This document shows, one piece after another, positions 20,701-60,138 of a stretch of 64,000 nt of DNA (within the stretch, counting starts at the first letter, position 1; every line of letters starts with the position of its first letter). Origin of the DNA: Lineus longissimus (taxonomy: Eukaryota > Nemertea > Pilidiophora > Heteronemertea > Lineidae). Under the pieces are notes generated by a model that made no database searches, was not told the origin of the DNA, and saw nothing but the letters and a program-made list of their open reading frames with translations. Made by a program: the position numbers and the translations under genes. The stretch covers positions 7,874,001 through 7,938,000 of the forward strand of contig NC_088314.1 in NCBI RefSeq assembly GCF_910592395.1, given 5' to 3'.

Positions 20701-21265
20701 TCATTGGCCTACACTGCTACAGCTCGCCCACTGGGGATCATTGGCCTACACTGCTACAGCTTGCCCACTGGGGATCATTGGCCTACACTGCTACAGCTCG
20801 CCCACTGGGGATCATTGGCCTACACAGCTACAGCTTGCCCACTGGGGATCATTGGCCTACACTGCTACAGCTCGCCCACTGGGGATCATTGGCCTACACT
20901 GCTACAGCTCGCCCACTGGGGATCATTGGCCTACACTGCTACAGCTTGCCCACTGGGGATCATTGGCCTACACTGCTACAGCTCGCCCACTGGGGATCAT
21001 TGGCCTACACTGCTACAGCTCGCCCACTGGGGATCATTGGCCTACACTGCTACAGCTTGCCCACTGGGGATCATTGGCCTACACTGCTACAGCTTGCCCA
21101 CTGGGGATCATTGGCCTACACTGCTACAGCTTGCCCACTGGGGATCATTGGCCTACACTGCTACAGCTCGCCCACTGGGGATCATTGGCCTACACTGCTA
21201 CAGCTTGCCCACTGGGGATCATTGGCCTACACTGCTACAGCTTGCCCACTGGGGATCATTGCCTG
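20701..21265 (+). repeat. 37-bp minisatellite, 15 units
   Basis: The unit is CATTGGCCTACACTGCTACA followed by GCTCGCCCACTGGGGAT. Units differ almost only at one C/T site (CTCGCCC or CTTGCCC); reading along the array this gives C T C T C C T C C T T T C T T. Unit 4 also has ACAGCT for ACTGCT. Because 37 is not a multiple of 3 and the unit lacks stops, all three forward frames stay open; the long predicted peptides are artefacts. Confidence 0.97.
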
Positions 21266-35530: not shown

Positions 35531-38050
35531 AATGAAAAGCAACATTTAAAAAAAAAACCTCCATATAAGAATCTTTTCGATATATATTGTAAGAATTATG
35601 ACCCATCAAATGTCTAATAATATCTTGAAATTTAAGTTTAAAAGAACAAATAAATATATGCTCCCCTTACTTCTAAACCAAATGATTGAATAAAGTACTT
35701 TGGATTGGGTTCGCCCAGTTCCACAATTTGGTTACTCTGGTTTCTCTTCAATCCCACGCATAAATCTTTCGCCTTTTACTAAAGATTTCCGTGGAGAGGA
35801 ACACTCTAATGAGTCTATAGACATTTTTTGTAGCCCTACTGAAAAGTGGGGTAATACACCAAATAAAAGTAGAAATATGCTCTGGTAAAAGTACTTCGGT
35901 TCATTAGGTTTCTAGTTAGGTCTTATGCTTCTAGTGTCAAAGGTCTTAGGTTTCTACAAATGTAGTTGGGTCTTATGTTTCTAGTATCAAGGGTCTTAGG
36001 TCTAAGCTTTCTATATGCCAAGGGTAGTCAGTAATGACTCAATATTTCATACCGTTGTTTCTCAGTCGTCCATCTTGATGTCATCGTCGTCAGCCCTCAA
36101 GACTTAGTCCCTTCCTCTTTCAAGGAGACTTCAGGAGCCCTGATCTCTCTTTTACTTCAAAAAGCAAGTCACCAAATGATAATTTTGTTTTCCTTCGCAC
36201 GCTTTTAGTGTGGATACTATGTCAGGGGCAGAGTAAGGGGAACCAATCGGTAGGCTGAGCCTTGAAACCACATCTCATTTGGAAATGATTTCAATTCAGA
36301 TACAGCAGAACCTACTCATTAAGGACACCTTTGGAACTTACAAAGGGAGGCCCCACTGTAGTTTGCTCTTTATGAAGAAGATCTTTGAAGTCAAATCTGG
36401 ATGGCTTCAGCCCTATCAAGGGATGACTGCCCCGTCCAAATGAGTCAAGAGCTCCAATAGGCAAAGCTCAGAAACCGAAAGATGAAACAAAAAACAAGTC
36501 ATAATTAAAAGATACATTGGGTTTATTCATAGAAAAATGCCTGTCAAAACCTAAATGACTCATTGTGACCTAATTTACAAAATATACCCATGACTGTCCT
36601 TGCAACTCAATGCCATCTCTTGATGAAGCCCTTTAATTACAATGTGTCAACCAACATACTGAAGTCTGAAACTATTTACAAACCTCATTATGTGGTGCAC
36701 TTCCTCCTGTTGCATACATTCAAAATAAACTACCCCTCATTCCGAGGCAGGAAAGCACTTAACACATGCACGTTGGACTATCAGGAGATTCTATACACAT
36801 ATCATTTAACCCTTGGCACCTTTTGCCATTTCAGCTCAAATTTTCTGCTCAAAATCGGTAAATACCGGGTGCGGTAGCTAGGGTTAAACACAAATGAGAT
36901 ATATATTCCATTACAACCCTGCAAACTTCCAGGAAACAAACAACTCACTTTCACCATTTCTTTACTCTGTCACACAAAATGCTGTATTCATTCCTCTACA
37001 AATGCCAAGATTTTAGATTTTTTAGACATATAAAGCAGTGTTTACATCAAATATGAATGAAGTGAACCTAAAAATGCCAGCAAACCCATCGGGTCACCCT
37101 TTCCCAACAAGTGAGCAAAGCAACACTCCTTAGATTTCTCCGGTTTTTGATTTGACACTGATGCAAGAGATTGAACATCAGTCTGAAAACTTAAATAAAC
37201 AGAGCAACTTGGGTGTGTCCTGGCTCATTCTCACTACAAATTGAACATATCTAGTCCATAGAAGGACTTGGAACCACAAATTTGAAGCTGGAGGCATTCA
37301 GTCACAGAGGTTGAACTGTTAGGCATGACTTGGTGTGGTTGCTGTCGATTCCAAGGCAGAGTGAGAGAGAGTCTCCCCAACTTAACTACCCAGGTTTTGA
37401 TATTTTCATCCCACTGACAACAATTCTGCTGCCCCTAAAGGAAACAATCCTGGGAGTTTTCATCAAAACAACTGAACAATGTTTCTCCCCTTTCAAAAAA
37501 GTGACTCTGCTCCTGCATTCATTCACACTTCTACATTCATCAACCAATCAAACACAAGCACACAATCGGTGTTATCAAAATTGAACATTGAGAGTATTAT
37601 TTTATAAAGTGTGAGGAAAAGTAGAACGAATATGAAGTGGCTTTATAGGGAAGCTATTGGCGGATCAAGCTACATGACATCACAAACAGGGGTCTCTCTC
37701 ATCTCGAAGTACATTGAAACAATTCACGCTTGATATGATGAAAATATTTTGTCTCCTGACTGCATACTATAGTCTCCCTTAATACGCCTAGTACACATCA
37801 GACTCACCAAGCGTCAAAAATAAACAATACAGTAATTTTTTAAGTATATCAGTATTATTGATAACCACTGTGTAGTGGAACTATTGCCCCGTAGACGTTT
37901 GAGATTATTTTCAACCATGCTAAAACACAAGGCTAATTTTTTTATACTTGTAAGCTTCCTGTATCATCTTGACCTATCAAAGAGAAAGGATAGTACGTTT
38001 TGACGATTTATTCCACTGACGTAGGCATATATCCCCCTCCCCTTCCCCCC
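35531..38050. other. Non-coding intergenic stretch
   Basis: A short imperfect duplication (GGTCTTATG...CTAGT.TCAA.GGTCTTAGG) lies at 35915-36010, and a MITE fragment at 36303. No exon supported. Confidence 0.45.
36303..36360. mobile_element. Fragment of the CAGTAGAACC MITE family
   Basis: CAGCAGAACCTACTCATTAA then GGACACC matches the terminus of the 27783/34606 family. The other end is short and decayed (CCCCACTGTAG). Confidence 0.45.
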
Positions 38051-46399: not shown

Positions 46400-47454
46400 T
46401 TTAAGATGAAATGGCCAGGGCCATTGTGCTCACCTCATGTGGAGGAAAGATGGATAAAGAGCATGGTATTGTGTCATGTAGTGTTAGGTTTGATGTAGGT
46501 CCAAGCAATTACAATTTCCCCAAAATGGCCAATTTACAGTACATTCGACCTCTGTGACCTTGAAAAGTAGGTCAAATCAAAGAAGACCCGGGTGACACAT
46601 TGAATGGTTGTTAGAATTAGATGTACCTATGATATAAAATTGGTGCCAATCGGGCAAGTCATTACTAGGAATAATGGCATTTTGAAGAATTTAGGATTTG
46701 GCCCCCTCCCTGGAGGCCAAACGGCAAATCAGATTGCACCAAACTTCGGTACCTGAGATCACCTGACCAAGGGGTACATGTGTACTTAATTTGTGATCAA
46801 TAGTCATTGCAGTTAAGAAACGTGCCATAGTTACGGCCTGACGGCGAATTAACGCCATTTGACCTCTGTGACCTTGACAAGAAGGTCAAATTAAAAACCT
46901 GTGTGACATATACTGTATGGTGGTTAGATGTACCCATGATATCAAATTGGTGGCAATCGGGCAAGAAGTTAAGGAATAATCACATTTTTAAGGTTTTTGG
47001 ATTTTGCCCCCTGGTGGTCAAGTGGTGAATCATATTGGACCAAACTTCGGTCCCTGAGATCACCTGACTAAGGGGTAAATGTGTACCAAATTTGGTATCA
47101 ATAGTCATTGCAGTTTAGAAACGTGCCATCGTTACATCCTAACGGCCAATTTACACCATTTGACCTCTGTGACCTTGAAAAGGAGGTCAAATCAAAAACC
47201 CGGAGGATATATGATGCACCTTTGCTAGAAGTACCTACCATATTTTTTTCAAAATTTCCCGACTACTATTAAGGGAGATATTGCATATTTTTACTTTTAA
47301 CGTTTGGCCCCCTGGTGGCCAAACCATGAAACGAATCGGACCGAAACTTGGTCTCCAAGGTGTCATTACATAAGGGTACATGTGTACCAAGTTTCAACTC
47401 AATAGCTCTAACAGTTACGAAACGTGCCCTGCTAACGGACGACGGACGACGACG

Positions 47455-52077: not shown

Positions 52078-53883
52078 CTTATGACAAGATGATTTTATCT
52101 GATAAATCAAAGCAAATTAGGTCTTCTTCAGATTGAACTAATCATCTTTTGTGTCGTCACTTCCTCTCCAGTTAAGCACATATTTTTCTTCGGCAAATCG
52201 TTACCTTTACCCACCGTGATGAAGTGCAAACGGAAAATCAGGATGCTTCATCTGCCATCATGATGTCATCAGTATGATTCATCATCCATGAACACAAAAC
52301 GAGGGTGGTCACTTATGCAACGCTTGGGTCTGCCGCTAGGTAGACAGGTTAGCGGATGATCAGCACAGGAATCATCCTGAGCTTCAGGTTTTTGATACTC
52401 CTACGTCCCATACAAAACCCTGAGAAAATCCATTAGAATCGACAGCGAAGGGTGGCTGTTCTGATAACCTGATACACTGTGCGTAATGTATGTATATATA
52501 GTGTTTTATATGACAATAAAATGTATATGAATAAAGTTTAAGATAATCCTATCGTTAAATCGTTTTATACTTCATCGATTCTATGCTGTTAAACATTGTG
52601 TAGACGTGTAATTGTGTTTTAATTAAGTAATGAAATAAATTTGCAGCGGGTGCGCGCAATACGAAGGAACAGCACTGAAAAATTCAGAATTTTCATAAAT
52701 ACCCGGATGTTCTAAAAATAGCAGCTAATGAAAATACGCGTTTCATGGCGCTGATTGAAATTTAACTAACCTACCTCGGACCCGAGCCCTATGGCGCAAA
52801 AGTCTATACAATTGATAGTGCATCTGAGAGCATTAATTCCTGGGTTCGTGGTTTACGAATTTCCGAGACTCAAATACAACCGACGCTCTGATTGGGCGCT
52901 TTTTTTTCTACCGCTACAATCCGTCTGAAGGGCATGGATTTCCCCAGGGGTTTGTAATAGCGAGAGCTGGAGCATATGGAAAACCACTGGGTGCCGAGGA
53001 TGCACAGGAATCAACACAGGAATAAATGGTTGAGGCATGACACAGAAACAGGAACATTTCTGAAGAGAACAAGCAGTTGATTCCATTGTTTGTCATGTAT
53101 TTTCATGCCTTCTTCATGCAGTTGGTCACACATTTACAGTGAACATGCCACGGGTCTGAAAGGTGAGAAGGTACTAACAATTTACGTAACTTCACAAAGT
53201 TTGAAGAGAAAGCAGAGTCGATGGAAGTTGACATGCTTAAAAGATTGGTTGATTTCATTATCGACTGATCAAAAGTTGATACTTAAAAAAATGACTTGCA
53301 TGTTCACCCTCTAAAGTATTTGGTGCAAACCCACTAAAAACAGGGTACAAGCAAAACAATATTATAAGATAAAAACATCAGCACCAATGAACAAATTCCA
53401 ACGAAATAACTTGGTACATTCATGAAACAACCACTTGATTATGCAATATTAAAATCAAAATTTTCACATTCCAAGTCACTGTAATTTAAAGAATATAAAA
53501 AATCTACGATAACAAATAAACAGACAATAAACATACAACAAGTGTCTTCTGTACTTCAACAACGGGACCAGGCAACAATGACTTCAACAATCAATGGGAT
53601 TCATTCAACATTAAGTAACACTTTACAACCACCTGCTCATGCTGTGAAAAGGACATTTATCTATTGACGATTGTCATCAGTTCATCACCTTATTGACAAA
53701 TATCAAACTTACACAAAAGGATTAGTCTCATAACCAGCAAAATTGGCTCAAAATCAAGGTCGACACTTGTGATTTTTGAGTAAATTGAGAATATTTATGA
53801 CTGTGGGTCAAATCAGTTGGCACTTTCACAAGGGCCGATATTCTGAAACATCTCTCAAATGTTAAGTTCAGCAACTGGAACCT
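52078..53883. other. Non-coding, nothing recognised
   Basis: No supported gene up to the left end of the 53884 transposon. Confidence 0.5.
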
Positions 53884-54365
53884 TAGTAGAGTCAATTTAT
53901 GAAAAATAAGGCCTAACCTCAAAAAAATTGCAAGCAAACGTTTTATGGTTGTTTATTGTAGTATTGGGTCTTGTGAACAACATATCAAAAGTTTACAAAA
54001 ATTTATGCCCGGGAAAGGGTCAAAAAGTGACGTCAAAAACAAGATGGCCGCCAAATCATAAAAGTGGCTATATCTCACTTCATATTTGACATAGAGTGAA
54101 AATATTGGTGCCTAGGTATAGGTTTTAGGGGTCAAGGAATCCATTAAGCCTATTTATGAGGTTGTAGGAGAATTGCATAATGGGAAATCCAAGATGGCCG
54201 CCACGACGGCCCCAGATTATGTCTTTGGCCACAACTCAGTTCATACTAAACGAAACTGACAGTTGTGTGGTGTCTTTTCATAGGTTTTAGGGGTCAAGGA
54301 ATCCATTAAGACTATTTATGAGGTTGTAGAAGAAGTGCATCATTGCAAATCGATGCTGACCGCAA
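53884..54365 (+). repeat. Left terminal inverted repeat
   Basis: It pairs with 57212-57688 in reverse complement. It contains two direct copies of a block beginning ATAGGTTTTAGGGGTCAAGG (54118 and 54281) and copies of AAGATGGCCGCC at about 54042 and 54191, with a decayed third near 54350. The subterminal repeats are likely protein-binding sites for the element's own product (inference). Confidence 0.9.
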
Positions 54366-54438
54366 TACACCCAAGACTTAAAAATAGCTCAGTTTATGTT
54401 ATTGGTCATCAAGCGACAAAACATGCATTTTCTCCACG

Positions 54439-55827
54439 TTGGAGTACGTATGCAACCTAGCCGCTAAGCAAAACATCCCACCAATCGTTACATTCGACCA
54501 GCCGCTCTTCTGGAAGGCATCGGAGATCGTAAATGAAGTACCAGACAATAGTCCGATTAGAAATGTTGTGTTGTTACTAGGCAGTTTCCATACCTTCATG
54601 AATCTTCTTGGGGCAATAGGAACATTAATGGATGGGAGTGGGCTGAGACAGATCCTAGAAACAGTCTATGGAGAAAACGCGGTTGTGCATATGATGAGTG
54701 GTAAATCTGTACAACGTGCATTTCGTGGACATCTTCTTGTGGATCAATGCCTTACGCATCAGATAGTGGCTAAAATCATCAAGGACGAGACTGGTTTTGA
54801 AAACGTCTTGAAAGAGCTTGAAACGCTCTACGCTCTTACGGAAACTGGTGAACGAGAGATGGAGTCGTTGCTGAAGTCGGATTGCATCGCAACAATCGCT
54901 CATCAGCTCAAATCGAAAGAATGTGAACTATCCAATGATTCAAAGACAAGTAAACTGTGGATAAACTATCAGAAAATGTTGGGAGTTGCACGCGAGCTCA
55001 TTGAGGCTGATCGCACTGGGTCATGGGAGATGCACCTCCATGCCATCGCAGATTGTTTGCCAATATTTGCAGCAGCTGGACACCCTAACTATCTCAAGTC
55101 GGGTTATCTGTATCTACAGAAGATGAACAGCTTAGAAGCTGAAAACCCTACTGTTCATCAGAAGTTTATGAATGGCTTCCATGTCATACGCCGCAGCAAC
55201 CAATACTGGGCTGGCCTAAGCTCTGATCTTGTTATAGAGCAGACGCTCATGCGTTCTCTTAAAAGCACAGGCGGGCTAACAAGAGGAAGTGGCTTCAGTG
55301 AACACCAAAGAACACTTTGGACCATGTCTCGCCCTGTAACCTCAGCCTACAACTATGCCATGCAAGAGTTCAGCCAGATGGTATACACAACAAGTGAACA
55401 GCACAAAGAGGCTACGCCTTCAAGGATGAACAGAGATAAAGCAGACGGAGAAAAGCTAATAGAAAAACTTGCAGACTTTTCTCCCTTTACAGGGGATGCC
55501 ACCTTGCGCAACATTATAACAAGGATAAATGCTAATGAAGATGTGAACGTGCATGATCTTTTCACGGTTGGCAAAAGCGTAGTAAAAGCAATGGAAGGAC
55601 AGTCTATATTTTCGTATTCGCACAAGAGAAATACTAGAGTGAAGACATTAGCTACTGCCCGGGCCATCAAAATAACTGGCGATCGAACCATCGACCCAGC
55701 TCTGTTGTTTCAGAGGTTCTTGGTTGTGTCACAGTCAGGAGAAGATCTTAGTCTAAGTGAGGTGATGGACTATGAACTCAGCCCTCATCCTCCATCGTTA
55801 TTTGAAGCAAAGCACTGCTTGCGCTAA
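54439..55827 (+). CDS. Transposon protein, N-terminal part (5'-incomplete, ends at an in-frame TAA)
   Basis: This is 462 codons of convincing coding sequence with no ATG at its beginning: the frame is open back to a TAG near 54382, the codon at 54439 is TTG, and the first in-frame ATG is at 54598 within the conserved-looking SFHTFMNLLGAI. The protein start is therefore missing, either deleted or in a lost exon. Notable motifs include SGKSVQRAFRGHLLVDQC, ADCLPIFAAAGHPNYLKS and WAGLSSDLVIEQTLMRSL. I cannot assign a fold. The frame ends CLR-stop, and the same frame resumes at the next codon as PDKAQL, so this and 55846-57111 are one gene split by a single nonsense codon. It may hold the DNA-recognition or recombinase part. 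Confidence 0.75.
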   Translation: MEYVCNLAAKQNIPPIVTFDQPLFWKASEIVNEVPDNSPIRNVVLLLGSFHTFMNLLGAIGTLMDGSGLRQILETVYGENAVVHMMSGKSVQRAFRGHLLVDQCLTHQIVAKIIKDETGFENVLKELETLYALTETGEREMESLLKSDCIATIAHQLKSKECELSNDSKTSKLWINYQKMLGVARELIEADRTGSWEMHLHAIADCLPIFAAAGHPNYLKSGYLYLQKMNSLEAENPTVHQKFMNGFHVIRRSNQYWAGLSSDLVIEQTLMRSLKSTGGLTRGSGFSEHQRTLWTMSRPVTSAYNYAMQEFSQMVYTTSEQHKEATPSRMNRDKADGEKLIEKLADFSPFTGDATLRNIITRINANEDVNVHDLFTVGKSVVKAMEGQSIFSYSHKRNTRVKTLATARAIKITGDRTIDPALLFQRFLVVSQSGEDLSLSEVMDYELSPHPPSLFEAKHCLR

Positions 55828-55845
55828 CCAGACAAGGCACAACTG

Positions 55846-57111
55846 ATGGAAGCTATAAGAAACCATGTCACTCCTAAATCCGAGGATGCCGTGCTCGATA
55901 CAATCCCAGTCACTGATCACTACGTTTTAGACGGGGGCTCACTTTTGCATAGAACGAAATGGACCGAAGGGTCCACATACAGCTCGATCGCCGAGGCATA
56001 TGCAAAGCTCACTGGTGATTTATACGGACATGCCACAGTTGTCTTTGATGGGTACAGCGGAGGGCCAGGAATTAAGGATAATACTCATCAGCGACGAGGT
56101 GCTAACAAGACTGCAAACAAGGTCGATATATCAGATGCTACCAAGTTCGTTGGAAAAAAGGAAGACTTCCTCTCAAATGTGGAAAACAAACAGGCTATGA
56201 TTGATCTAATCGCAAACTGTTTGCGACAGAAAGGCTGCGATGTCATTCAAGCTGAGGGAGATGCAGACGTGGACATTGTAAAAGCTGCAGTTTCGATGTC
56301 TAGGTACAAATCTACAACGCTCATTGGTGAAGATACCGACCTGTTGATTCTCCTCTTGTATCATGCGACAGTTGAGGACAGCCATGAGCTGTACTTCCGT
56401 TCAGACAAAAGTGGTAATAAAACAAAACATGTGTACAACATCAGTGTTCTGAAACATATATTAGGTGATGACATATGCACTGATCTGCTGTTTTTGCACG
56501 CATTCACGGGTTGTGATACGACTTCAAGAATCTTTGGCATTGGAAAGAAATCCGTGTTCGAAAAGATTCTGAAGGGAGACACCGTGTTACGCTCATGTTC
56601 AAAGGTGTTTTGTTCCCCTGACAGAGACAAAAAAACTATCGAAGGTGCTGGCTCTAAAGCAATGATTTCATTGTTTAATGGGAATCAAAGCGAATCTCCT
56701 GCAGCCCTTAGGTACAGTTTGCTCTGTAAGAAAGTTTCAAGAGCCAAGGCATTTGTGACACCTGAACGACTTCCACCAACTGCTTCTGCCACCAGATTTC
56801 ACTCACTTAGGGTGCATTACCAAGTGCTTGTCTGGATGGGCATGAGTGAGGACATGGTTCCAACTGACTGGGGATTCAAAGTCCAAGGGGATACACTCAT
56901 TCCGATCATGATGGATAATGACCTTGCTCCCGAGGCTCTCCTCAAAATGATCCACTGCAACTGCTCCGCTACATGTAACACACTAAGGTGTACCTGCAAA
57001 AAGCATGGGCTTGAGTGCACGAATGCATGCGGATCTTGTCAAGAGGGGAACTGTGACAACATGACTCTGGACCCAATACCAGACGAAGAAGACGTTGATG
57101 AAGAACAATGA
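55846..57111 (+). CDS. Transposon protein, C-terminal part: FEN1/XPG-like (PIN/FLAP) nuclease plus CXC domain
   Basis: This part has 421 codons from ATG to TGA. In its own numbering, the motif order matches flap endonucleases: an early Asp in YVLDGGSLLH (D29); VVFDGY (D68) followed by HQRR (81-84); EGDADVDIVKAA (E137, D139, D141, D143); IGEDTDLLILL (E162, D163, D165); and TGCDTTSRIFGIGKKS (D224 plus the G-x-G turn). The last closely parallels the GCDY..GIGP..A segment of FEN1, where metal-binding acids and a helix-turn-helix contact DNA. The tail (C371, C373, C377, C382, C384, C391, C395, C398, C403) is a tesmin/CXC-like zinc-binding pattern, likely DNA-binding. The end is acidic. All expected acidic residues are present, so this half looks catalytically intact although the gene is broken upstream. 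The family assignment is by eye. Confidence 0.75.
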   Translation: MEAIRNHVTPKSEDAVLDTIPVTDHYVLDGGSLLHRTKWTEGSTYSSIAEAYAKLTGDLYGHATVVFDGYSGGPGIKDNTHQRRGANKTANKVDISDATKFVGKKEDFLSNVENKQAMIDLIANCLRQKGCDVIQAEGDADVDIVKAAVSMSRYKSTTLIGEDTDLLILLLYHATVEDSHELYFRSDKSGNKTKHVYNISVLKHILGDDICTDLLFLHAFTGCDTTSRIFGIGKKSVFEKILKGDTVLRSCSKVFCSPDRDKKTIEGAGSKAMISLFNGNQSESPAALRYSLLCKKVSRAKAFVTPERLPPTASATRFHSLRVHYQVLVWMGMSEDMVPTDWGFKVQGDTLIPIMMDNDLAPEALLKMIHCNCSATCNTLRCTCKKHGLECTNACGSCQEGNCDNMTLDPIPDEEDVDEEQ

Positions 57112-57211
57112 GATATAGAGGCTATTTCCACAGTGACTAAAAATAAAATATTACTATGTACATATAGTCGTTGCTAAATATAGTTCTTTAATATTCCCAA
57201 CTTACGCACCA

Positions 57212-57688
57212 TATCTGGTGGCCATCTTAGATTCCCTATCATGCACTTCTTCTACAACCTCATAAATAGTCTTAATGGATTCCTTGACCCCTAAAACCTA
57301 TGAAATGACACCACACAACTGTCAGTTTCGTTTAGTATGAACTGAGTTGTGGCCAAAGACATAATCTGGGGCCGTCGTGGCGGCCATCTTGGATTTCCCA
57401 TTATGCAATTCTCCTACAACCTCATAAATAGGCTTAATGGATTCCTTGACCCCTAAAACCTATACCTAGACACCAATATTTTCACTCTATGTCAAATATG
57501 AAGTGAGATATAGCCACTTTTATTATTTGGCGGCCATCTTGTTTTTGACGTCACTTTTTGACCCTTTCCGGGACTTAAATTTTTGTAAACTTTTGATATG
57601 TTGTTTACAAGACCCAATACTACAATAAACAACCATAAAACGTTTGCTTGCAATTTTTTTGGGGTCAGGTGCTATATTGACTCTACTA
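57212..57688 (-). repeat. Right terminal inverted repeat
   Basis: This is the reverse complement of the left end, with a few substitutions and a gap of roughly 9 bases near the tip. GGCGGCCATCTT occurs at about 57529 and 57379, and a GGTGGCCATCTT variant at about 57217, mirroring the left end. Confidence 0.9.
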
Positions 57689-57691
57689 CCT

Positions 57692-58756
57692 ACCTTATCC
57701 TCTTTTTGATAGATCGGCTCCGAAGCCGCAACATTTCTCCAGTCATTTTTAAAAACTCCTCAACAAGTTTTAAGAGCATCGACAATCAGTACAGATGACA
57801 CACAGCACGTCCCACACACACTGACACAGTGCACTTCTACGGGACAAAGACTTCCGTTAAAAGGAGTTTTATGAAGCACATAACTGTCCTGTACTGCAGT
57901 TCAGAATTCTCAATATATGACAAATCACCAACCAAAACAAAAGGGAACCAGAGATAGAAATCTAGAGTATAGGCAGATTTAAATTCCCCTATATATTTAA
58001 AGGCAGAATCAGTCAACAGTTTTTCTTTTCCAAACGAAATTGCTCTCGTCTTTGTGCAGCAGTGATGGCCTATGGGTACACAGGCTACAAAAGGTTGAGG
58101 CGGGAGCCATTGTCAAACTTGGGTGATCGGTATGCCAACTCTCAAGAAGAGCTGGCGCTCAGCTTAAATTAGGGCAGTCATTGTCACTTTAGGAAGCTTT
58201 CGATAGCCTTCGATATGAAAGATTCATTGGTGCCAGGCAAACATTGGGTTGAAATTGACAAGAATTTTATAAGTAGTTTTTTTCTTAATTGGAAAGAGGT
58301 AAAATGTGACACCAGAATTTTTAATTTTCTGAGGGCAAATCAGACAACAAGATCATTCTAAAACAGGAACAGGAAGAACAAAGCAGCATTATTTGATAAA
58401 TTTTGATAAGCACCAGAGGCAAACTCCTATATAAACCTAACCTAAACTTGTTTTTACCAGTATGTGTTGGAATTGATGATATTGATAATTCAATAGTCAC
58501 TTTTTCTTGATAACACCAACCTTTGTTCCAGAAGTGCTGGATCATGTTCCCCACCCAAGGTCTCTTTATCAACTAAAAAGTATTTTGAACATCATCAGGC
58601 CTTTCAAATTCAGTACATGTGTCTAATTCCTATAACACTATCAGAACACAAAACTGAGGTCAACATTTCCCTGACAATGCAATGTGCAATTTGAGCACAT
58701 ATAATTAGTTCACCCACAGACAACGAGCAGCAGCTATGAGATACAAGGCATGGCCA
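57692..58756. other. Non-coding, nothing recognised
   Basis: Sequence between the large transposon and the inverted-array element; no exons or repeats noticed. Confidence 0.5.
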
Positions 58757-60138
58757 GCAATTTCGGTTTATGCCTGTTTCCCCTATTCCTGTTTCGCCTA
58801 CAAAATTCCTGTTTCGCCTATTCCTGTTTGGCCTATTTCCTGTTTCGCCTATTTCCTGTTTGGCCTATTCCTGTTTCGCCTACTTTCCAGTACCCCTACA
58901 ATAAATCGACTCTCCCAGGGGGAACCTTAGGGATGCATGTCCATTTTATGGGGAAAATGTGAGGGGACAATTGGATGATGTTAACGATGTGATGACAATT
59001 TGACTAATCAAATGCCATCAACTTTGTTAACAAACCATGCCATGACCGTTTTGAAAGAGTCACCTTGAAAGCGGGGACAGTCCGGGACTTTACTTGACCA
59101 TAGGACCATACTGACACACAGTAAAAACTAATAGATTAAGTAGAGTAAAGCAGTCGCTTATTTTATAAAAACAGGAATTCATGAGTTTTTGATAAAAATA
59201 CATTATACTGTACATTCTCATAATTATTTGATCAAAATCAGCTGTAAAACCCATGTCATAATAAAGAACAATGTAGCTATAGGTATCCTTTCTATTAAGA
59301 AGCCAGTTACTGACTAATACTACGTTCACACTGAAGGCGAATTCAAACCGTCTTCCGGAGAGCGCTCTCTGGAAAGCGGTTTGTAAAATCCGGTCGCGTC
59401 ACACTTGGGTCTTAAAGCGCATTCAAATCGGTTTAAAACGGGTCACAATGAATACGCATTAACGATGCGCCATCTATAATTACATGGTTGAACTCACTCA
59501 CAGTTATGCTGTGGGCATGCGCAGTGCGAACGCACTGCTTAATGCGCATTAAGCGCGCCACACTACGAATTCCAAAGCGGCTTCAATGCGAATTAACCAA
59601 AGCGACTTCGTTGATGCGCATTAAAGAACCGTATTTGTTAAAGCGGTTTGAAAACGGTTCAAACCGACCTGAGTGTGAACACCCAATACGTATTAAAGGT
59701 TTAAAGCGGATTCAATTCGCTTTATAACCCCAGTGTGAACACAGTTTTAGATAAAAGAAAGAGAATCCAAAATATAAAATGCAGGCCTAAGAAACCTTTC
59801 TCAAATCTAATGAAAGGGTAAAACTTTCTTACTATTTTTTTTCTTGCCTTTTAAAATAAGCTAAAACATAAGCCTATGTAAGCTATGTATAATTTTCCAA
59901 AGTTATTCCGAATGATACTGAAATAATTGACATGTCGCTAAATCCATTATTTCAGACTTTATTCTTAATGATAGCCTTTAACACTATAGTAAGGGACGGT
60001 TCATATTCCTACGTCTGTGGCGAAACAGGAATTAGGTGAAACAGGAAGTAGGCGAATCAGGAATAGGTGAATAAGGAATTAGGCGAAACAGGAATAGGCG
60101 GAACAGGAATAGGCGAAACAGGAATACACCGCAATTTC
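58757..60138. mobile_element. Element bounded by inverted tandem arrays of a ~17-bp unit
   Basis: CCTATTCCTGTTTCG-type units repeat about seven times at 58772-58883 (+), and the reverse complement (GGCGAAACAGGAATA) repeats about seven times at 60019-60127. Outside the arrays the termini also pair (GCAATTTCGGTTTATGCC versus GAAATTGCGGTGTATTCC inverted). A 427-bp MITE is nested between them. This is a foldback-like structure; the superfamily is unknown. Confidence 0.6.
59319..59745. mobile_element. MITE with GTTCACACTG termini, 427 bp, same family as 9303
   Basis: The ends ACTACGTTCACACTG and, inverted, ACTGTGTTCACACTG bracket the element. The interior shares CTCTCCGGAGA-like, GGTCGCGTCACACT and AAACGGTTCAAACCG words with the 9303 copy. 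It contains GCGCCATCT (59467-59475) and GGGCATGCGCAGTGCG (59513-59528). The target duplication is not clear. It is nested in the inverted-array structure 58757-60138. Confidence 0.75.

Follow-up and report, generated by a model that had tools for sequence, protein, structure and literature searches.

A 3805-bp element at positions 53884-57688 of a 64-kb window of Lineus longissimus DNA is a multicopy DNA transposon that probably belongs to the AcademX lineage of the Academ superfamily and is likely non-autonomous. The window is the whole stretch that was analyzed, and corresponds to C7:7874001-7938000 of the host genome (G000, 391 Mb, 30 contigs). The intact protein of this group is predicted to combine a DDE transposase core, a FEN1/XPG-type nuclease, and a CXC tail. 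The initial annotation of this DNA described a transposon with inverted repeats of about 450-480 bp enclosing a single long frame, with no DDE transposase in sight. The window copy is damaged and decaying, and probably represents a known type of element, not a new way of moving DNA.

The inverted arms at 53903-54361 and 57220-57678 share 95% identity over 459 nt in an ungapped comparison. Once a short gap is allowed, the aligned terminal inverted repeats (TIRs) reach the exact element ends at 53884 and 57688 and measure about 470 bp, in agreement with the repeats first described. Both termini begin TAGTAGAGTCAAT, and CCT abuts the element on each side as a 3-bp target-site duplication (TSD). 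The coding region is the single long frame first described only when it is read across an in-frame stop, which divides it into two pieces, 54439-55827 (462 aa) and 55846-57111 (421 aa). The features of the element, together with the empty site of a sister element in the same window, are as follows.

53881-53883, no strand: left TSD, CCT (sequence)
53884-54361, + strand: left TIR, starting TAGTAGAGTCAAT (inverted-repeat comparison and alignment)
54106-54363, + strand: two direct subrepeats of about 96 bp in the left TIR (54106-54201 and 54268-54363; 84% identity)
54439-55827, + strand: remnant of a predicted DDE transposase, second part only, without the first Asp and beta strands 1-3 and with the in-frame stop at its end (open reading frame, alignment, model)
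54496-54498, + strand: FDQP motif, with the second Asp of the predicted DDE triad (172 of 174 aligned relatives have D)
55237-55239, + strand: DLVIEQ motif, with the Glu of the predicted DDE triad (228 of 231 aligned relatives have E)
55825-55827, + strand: in-frame stop dividing the two halves (common to 10 of 11 copies)
55846-57111, + strand: predicted FEN1/Exo1/XPG-type nuclease domain and CXC tail, 421 aa (open reading frame, structure prediction, conservation)
55930-56517, + strand: seven conserved nuclease acids, D29, D68, D139, D141, D163, D165, and D224 (alignment of relatives)
56956-57054, + strand: nine-cysteine CXC-like tail (cysteine count; weak Pfam match to preSET_CXC, E 0.96)
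57216-57475, - strand: two direct subrepeats of about 98 bp in the inner right TIR (57216-57313 and 57378-57475; 87% identity)
57220-57688, - strand: right TIR (inverted-repeat comparison and alignment)
57689-57691, no strand: right TSD, CCT (sequence)
46602-46901, + strand: paralogous empty site of sister element L021 (joined L021 flanks with one TSD copy, 300 columns, 98.7%)

The window element is a member of a recently mobile family. At least 11 copies spanning the full 3.8 kb at 99-100% identity are present in the host genome (40 of 129 candidates scored), and all 11 have identical ends and a perfect 3-bp TSD (CCT, CTA, TGT, CTT, TTA, ATA, CCA, TTA, CTT, TTA, and CTA), so that the observation is not due to chance. 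A further 13 sister elements with located ends (L021-L027, L033, and L034-L038) have termini reading TAGT[A/C]GG[A/G]TCAA, and perfect 3-bp TSDs flank each of them, which brings the count to 24 of the 24 elements with both ends located. The shorter fetches L028-L032 of elements L034-L038 were not counted twice, and L020, which was fetched as a relative, stands outside the 24 because no ends of the TAGTAGAG form turned up in it and its ends were sought no further. For the empty-site test, flanks were joined with one TSD copy and matched against the fetched loci and the window only. For copy L011, this gave a match to an uninterrupted paralogous site in L020, with 99% identity over 300 ungapped columns. 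Among the sister elements, spanning matches were obtained for L021 (98.7%, ungapped; one of its empty sites is the one in the window), L033 (94%), and L035 (82%), the last two with small gaps. A gapped 74% match for L024 was left out of the count. The initial annotation was right in calling the element a DNA transposon, and the multiple copies, clean duplications, and empty sites that it proposed to look for were found. Short palindromic matches to the TIRs alone occur on both strands of the host genome, for example at G000:C7:4014651-4015029, and are likely derivatives of these elements that resemble miniature inverted-repeat transposable elements. In the window, 46527-47322 is a tandem and dispersed repeat of about 300 bp, another copy of which, elsewhere, took in the sister element L021.

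The N-terminal half of the window frame is predicted to be the second part of a DDE transposase with an RNase H-like fold of the P-element/hAT type. In full-length relatives, the modelled core has conserved D, D, and E residues and a large all-helical insertion ahead of the catalytic Glu; Foldseek alone gave no significant result on this model, and a VIA second look was used instead. The C-terminal half is predicted to adopt a FEN1/XPG fold, as was first proposed from its acidic motifs, which are all present. Seven nuclease acids are conserved in 97-99% of relatives aligned there, and the model places them where beta strands end or directly after, or before a helix. The nine cysteines reported for the tail were also counted. 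A Pfam scan of both window halves returned only a weak CXC match, phmmer of the C-terminal half against the PDB gave no useful match, and a nuclease-family profile search of the PDB gave no FEN1/XPG match; the nuclease fold therefore rests on structure prediction. The nuclease of AcademX elements goes by the name XPG. A scan of viral contigs found no relative.

Full-length relatives occur in the same genome, and proteins from other animals join the two sets of motifs. A total of 347 proteins were fetched, and by pattern 27 of them, the longest of 1355 aa, combine the GCD motif of the nuclease with the motif of the first Asp. Transposase and nuclease motifs stand within one protein in sequences named from Mytilus (P0294 and P0295), Nymphon (P0187 and P0303), Lytechinus (P0281), and Dysidea (P0279), and a captured host FEN gene was rejected on this ground. 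In Lineus, L022 has a single open frame of 1449 aa from the first Met, with a Cys-rich N-terminus, then ADNVDHN at 437, FDQP at 592, and IEQ at 837, and after these the nuclease motifs at 1065-1255 and the CXC tail at 1403. Its predicted triad is D438, D593, and E838, and its left end is 78% identical to that of the window element over 172 columns. A Cys-rich N-terminus is also a feature of Academ proteins. L034 and L036 have frames of 1488 codons, and the motif order of L034 is the same as that of L022; the first Met of L034 lies inside the open frame and an upstream exon is possible.

Alignment of the window frame starts at residue 170 of P0122, 565 of P0241, and 566 of L022. The part upstream of that start, and hence missing, holds predicted strands 1-3 (P0122 residues 36-44, 59-67, and 157-164) and the first Asp, D42. 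With only the second Asp and the Glu left, no DDE enzyme was in sight at first reading. The claim that none is involved does not hold, since the N-terminal half is predicted to be part of one and the missing pieces are kept in full-length relatives; the second option of the initial annotation, a nuclease paired with an unrecognised recombinase fold, was closer to the present result. Upstream exons supplying the missing N-terminus were ruled out, as the window holds no further match. The same N-terminal part is absent from all 11 copies, and the element, lacking what intact relatives keep, is likely non-autonomous. Most likely, the 11 copies were mobilised in trans by a protein encoded elsewhere, that of a full-length relative. 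A second N-truncated family of five copies, L023-L027, likely also of Academ type, has another start point; its frames are broken, and all five copies have at least one of the breaks in common. These copies have perfect TSDs and also moved, despite the broken frames, which favours movement in trans.

Two other accounts dispense with the transposase. In one, the stop is functional and the 421-codon frame gives a separate nuclease protein for which the N-terminal part is not needed; the stop is indeed common to 10 of the 11 copies, with a Met just downstream, and the nuclease frame is open to its normal end in five (L009, L010, L011, L012, and L015). However, this account is highly improbable. 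In the full-length relatives, a single frame encodes both halves; among the 11 copies, the one without the common stop is broken at another position, several outside the five carry frameshifts, and a nuclease acid codon is altered in 2/11. Moreover, copies that are 99-100% identical stem from one recent source, from which a common stop is expected by descent. In the other account, the first option of the initial annotation, the flap nuclease alone moves the element with no DDE chemistry. Amplified copies without the first Asp, nearly half of them (5/11) with an open nuclease frame, would fit such a mechanism, yet the predicted triad is nearly invariant among relatives, the constant 3-bp TSDs agree with DDE strand transfer, and the movement of the truncated L023-L027 means that movement in trans suffices. 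We regard a nuclease-only mechanism as scarcely credible.

The published descriptions of Academ fit the element. Academ is placed among the DDD/E superfamilies (PMC9587614, in part) and named among those of Repbase (PMC5753468, in part), and the AcademX lineage is described as carrying a nuclease, with TSDs of 3 or 4 bp (PMC10045372, in part, citing Kojima 2020). In the partial texts of PMC10799480, PMC9587614, and PMC5753468, no link of AcademX to a nuclease and this TSD length was found. In the present family, the full-length relatives have a modelled DDE transposase (the window copy lacks the first D), the same open frame encodes a predicted nuclease with a FEN/PIN-like fold, and the TSDs are 3 bp. 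This length differs from the 9-10 bp of AcademH, and no helicase family, as would mark AcademH, was detected at E up to 0.1 by hmmscan of L022, P0239, P0241, and P0242. It also differs from the 8 bp of P elements and hAT. Academ membership is likely, as judged by architecture and TSD length against the published description. A fusion of the same anatomy in an unnamed, non-Academ superfamily would agree with the scanned proteins matching no named family model above the cut-off; nevertheless, it is unlikely, given that an Academ lineage with a nuclease and TSDs of this length is already in print (PMC10045372, in part). The initial view that the design belongs to no named superfamily is most likely wrong, given the descriptions of Academ and AcademX in the cited portions of PMC9587614 and PMC10045372.

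A mechanism can be proposed for the AcademX protein. The DDE core of a full-length relative would cleave the 3' ends to be transferred and link them to target DNA at positions staggered by 3 bp, as suggested by DDE chemistry and the TSDs. The fused flap nuclease would cleave or trim the 5' strands, the donor flaps that are left at the junctions, in a manner similar to the help that TnsB receives from TnsA in Tn7. We tentatively suggest that AcademX transposases may be natural two-nuclease machines, in which a P-element/hAT-like core makes and joins 3' ends and a fused FEN1-like nuclease, directed by the CXC tail, cleaves 5' donor flaps at strand-transfer junctions, a possible eukaryotic single-chain counterpart of TnsA-TnsB.

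Comparison with other systems shows where this protein would stand. It resembles Academ/AcademX in being of a DDE-class superfamily with a nuclease-bearing lineage and 3- or 4-bp TSDs, whereas the window copy is a derivative with an N-terminal deletion and an internal stop. With FEN1, Exo1, and XPG (Rad2) it shares the predicted fold and the placement of the seven acids, and its GCD..GIGKK loop resembles their helix-two-turn-helix region, but it has no detectable sequence-profile match to them and has in addition a C-terminal CXC tail and the transposase fusion. The P element and hAT (Hermes) are alike in the predicted RNase H-like core with its helical insertion and unlike in TSD length; these families are not known to have a fused nuclease. 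The likeness to Tn7 is one of analogy only, a DDE enzyme for 3' ends with a second nuclease for 5' ends, as TnsA is a separate restriction-enzyme-like protein and not a FEN1-like fusion.

The window has several other features. A 37-bp minisatellite of 15 copies (97%) at 20701-21261 is open in more than one frame, where open reading frames of about 200 aa are likely spurious. A U5 spliceosomal RNA gene or copy lies at 35732-35852 (Rfam RF00020, 95.6 bits), and a 920-aa open frame on the - strand at 41118-43880 matches nothing in Pfam at E up to 0.1. Tandem units of 15-16 bp at 58755-58898 and 60019-60126 are TTCCTGTTTCGCCTA-like and then, further on, GGCGAAACAGGAATA-like, the reverse complement.

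With these results, one candidate for transposition by a nuclease alone falls away, and the element illustrates how a DDE enzyme may be hidden in a partial copy. One host genome has open full-length frames (L022, L034, and L036) of a predicted transposase-flap nuclease fusion. Its near-identical copies, the precise element ends, and the empty sites should make the role of the nuclease in such elements directly testable.
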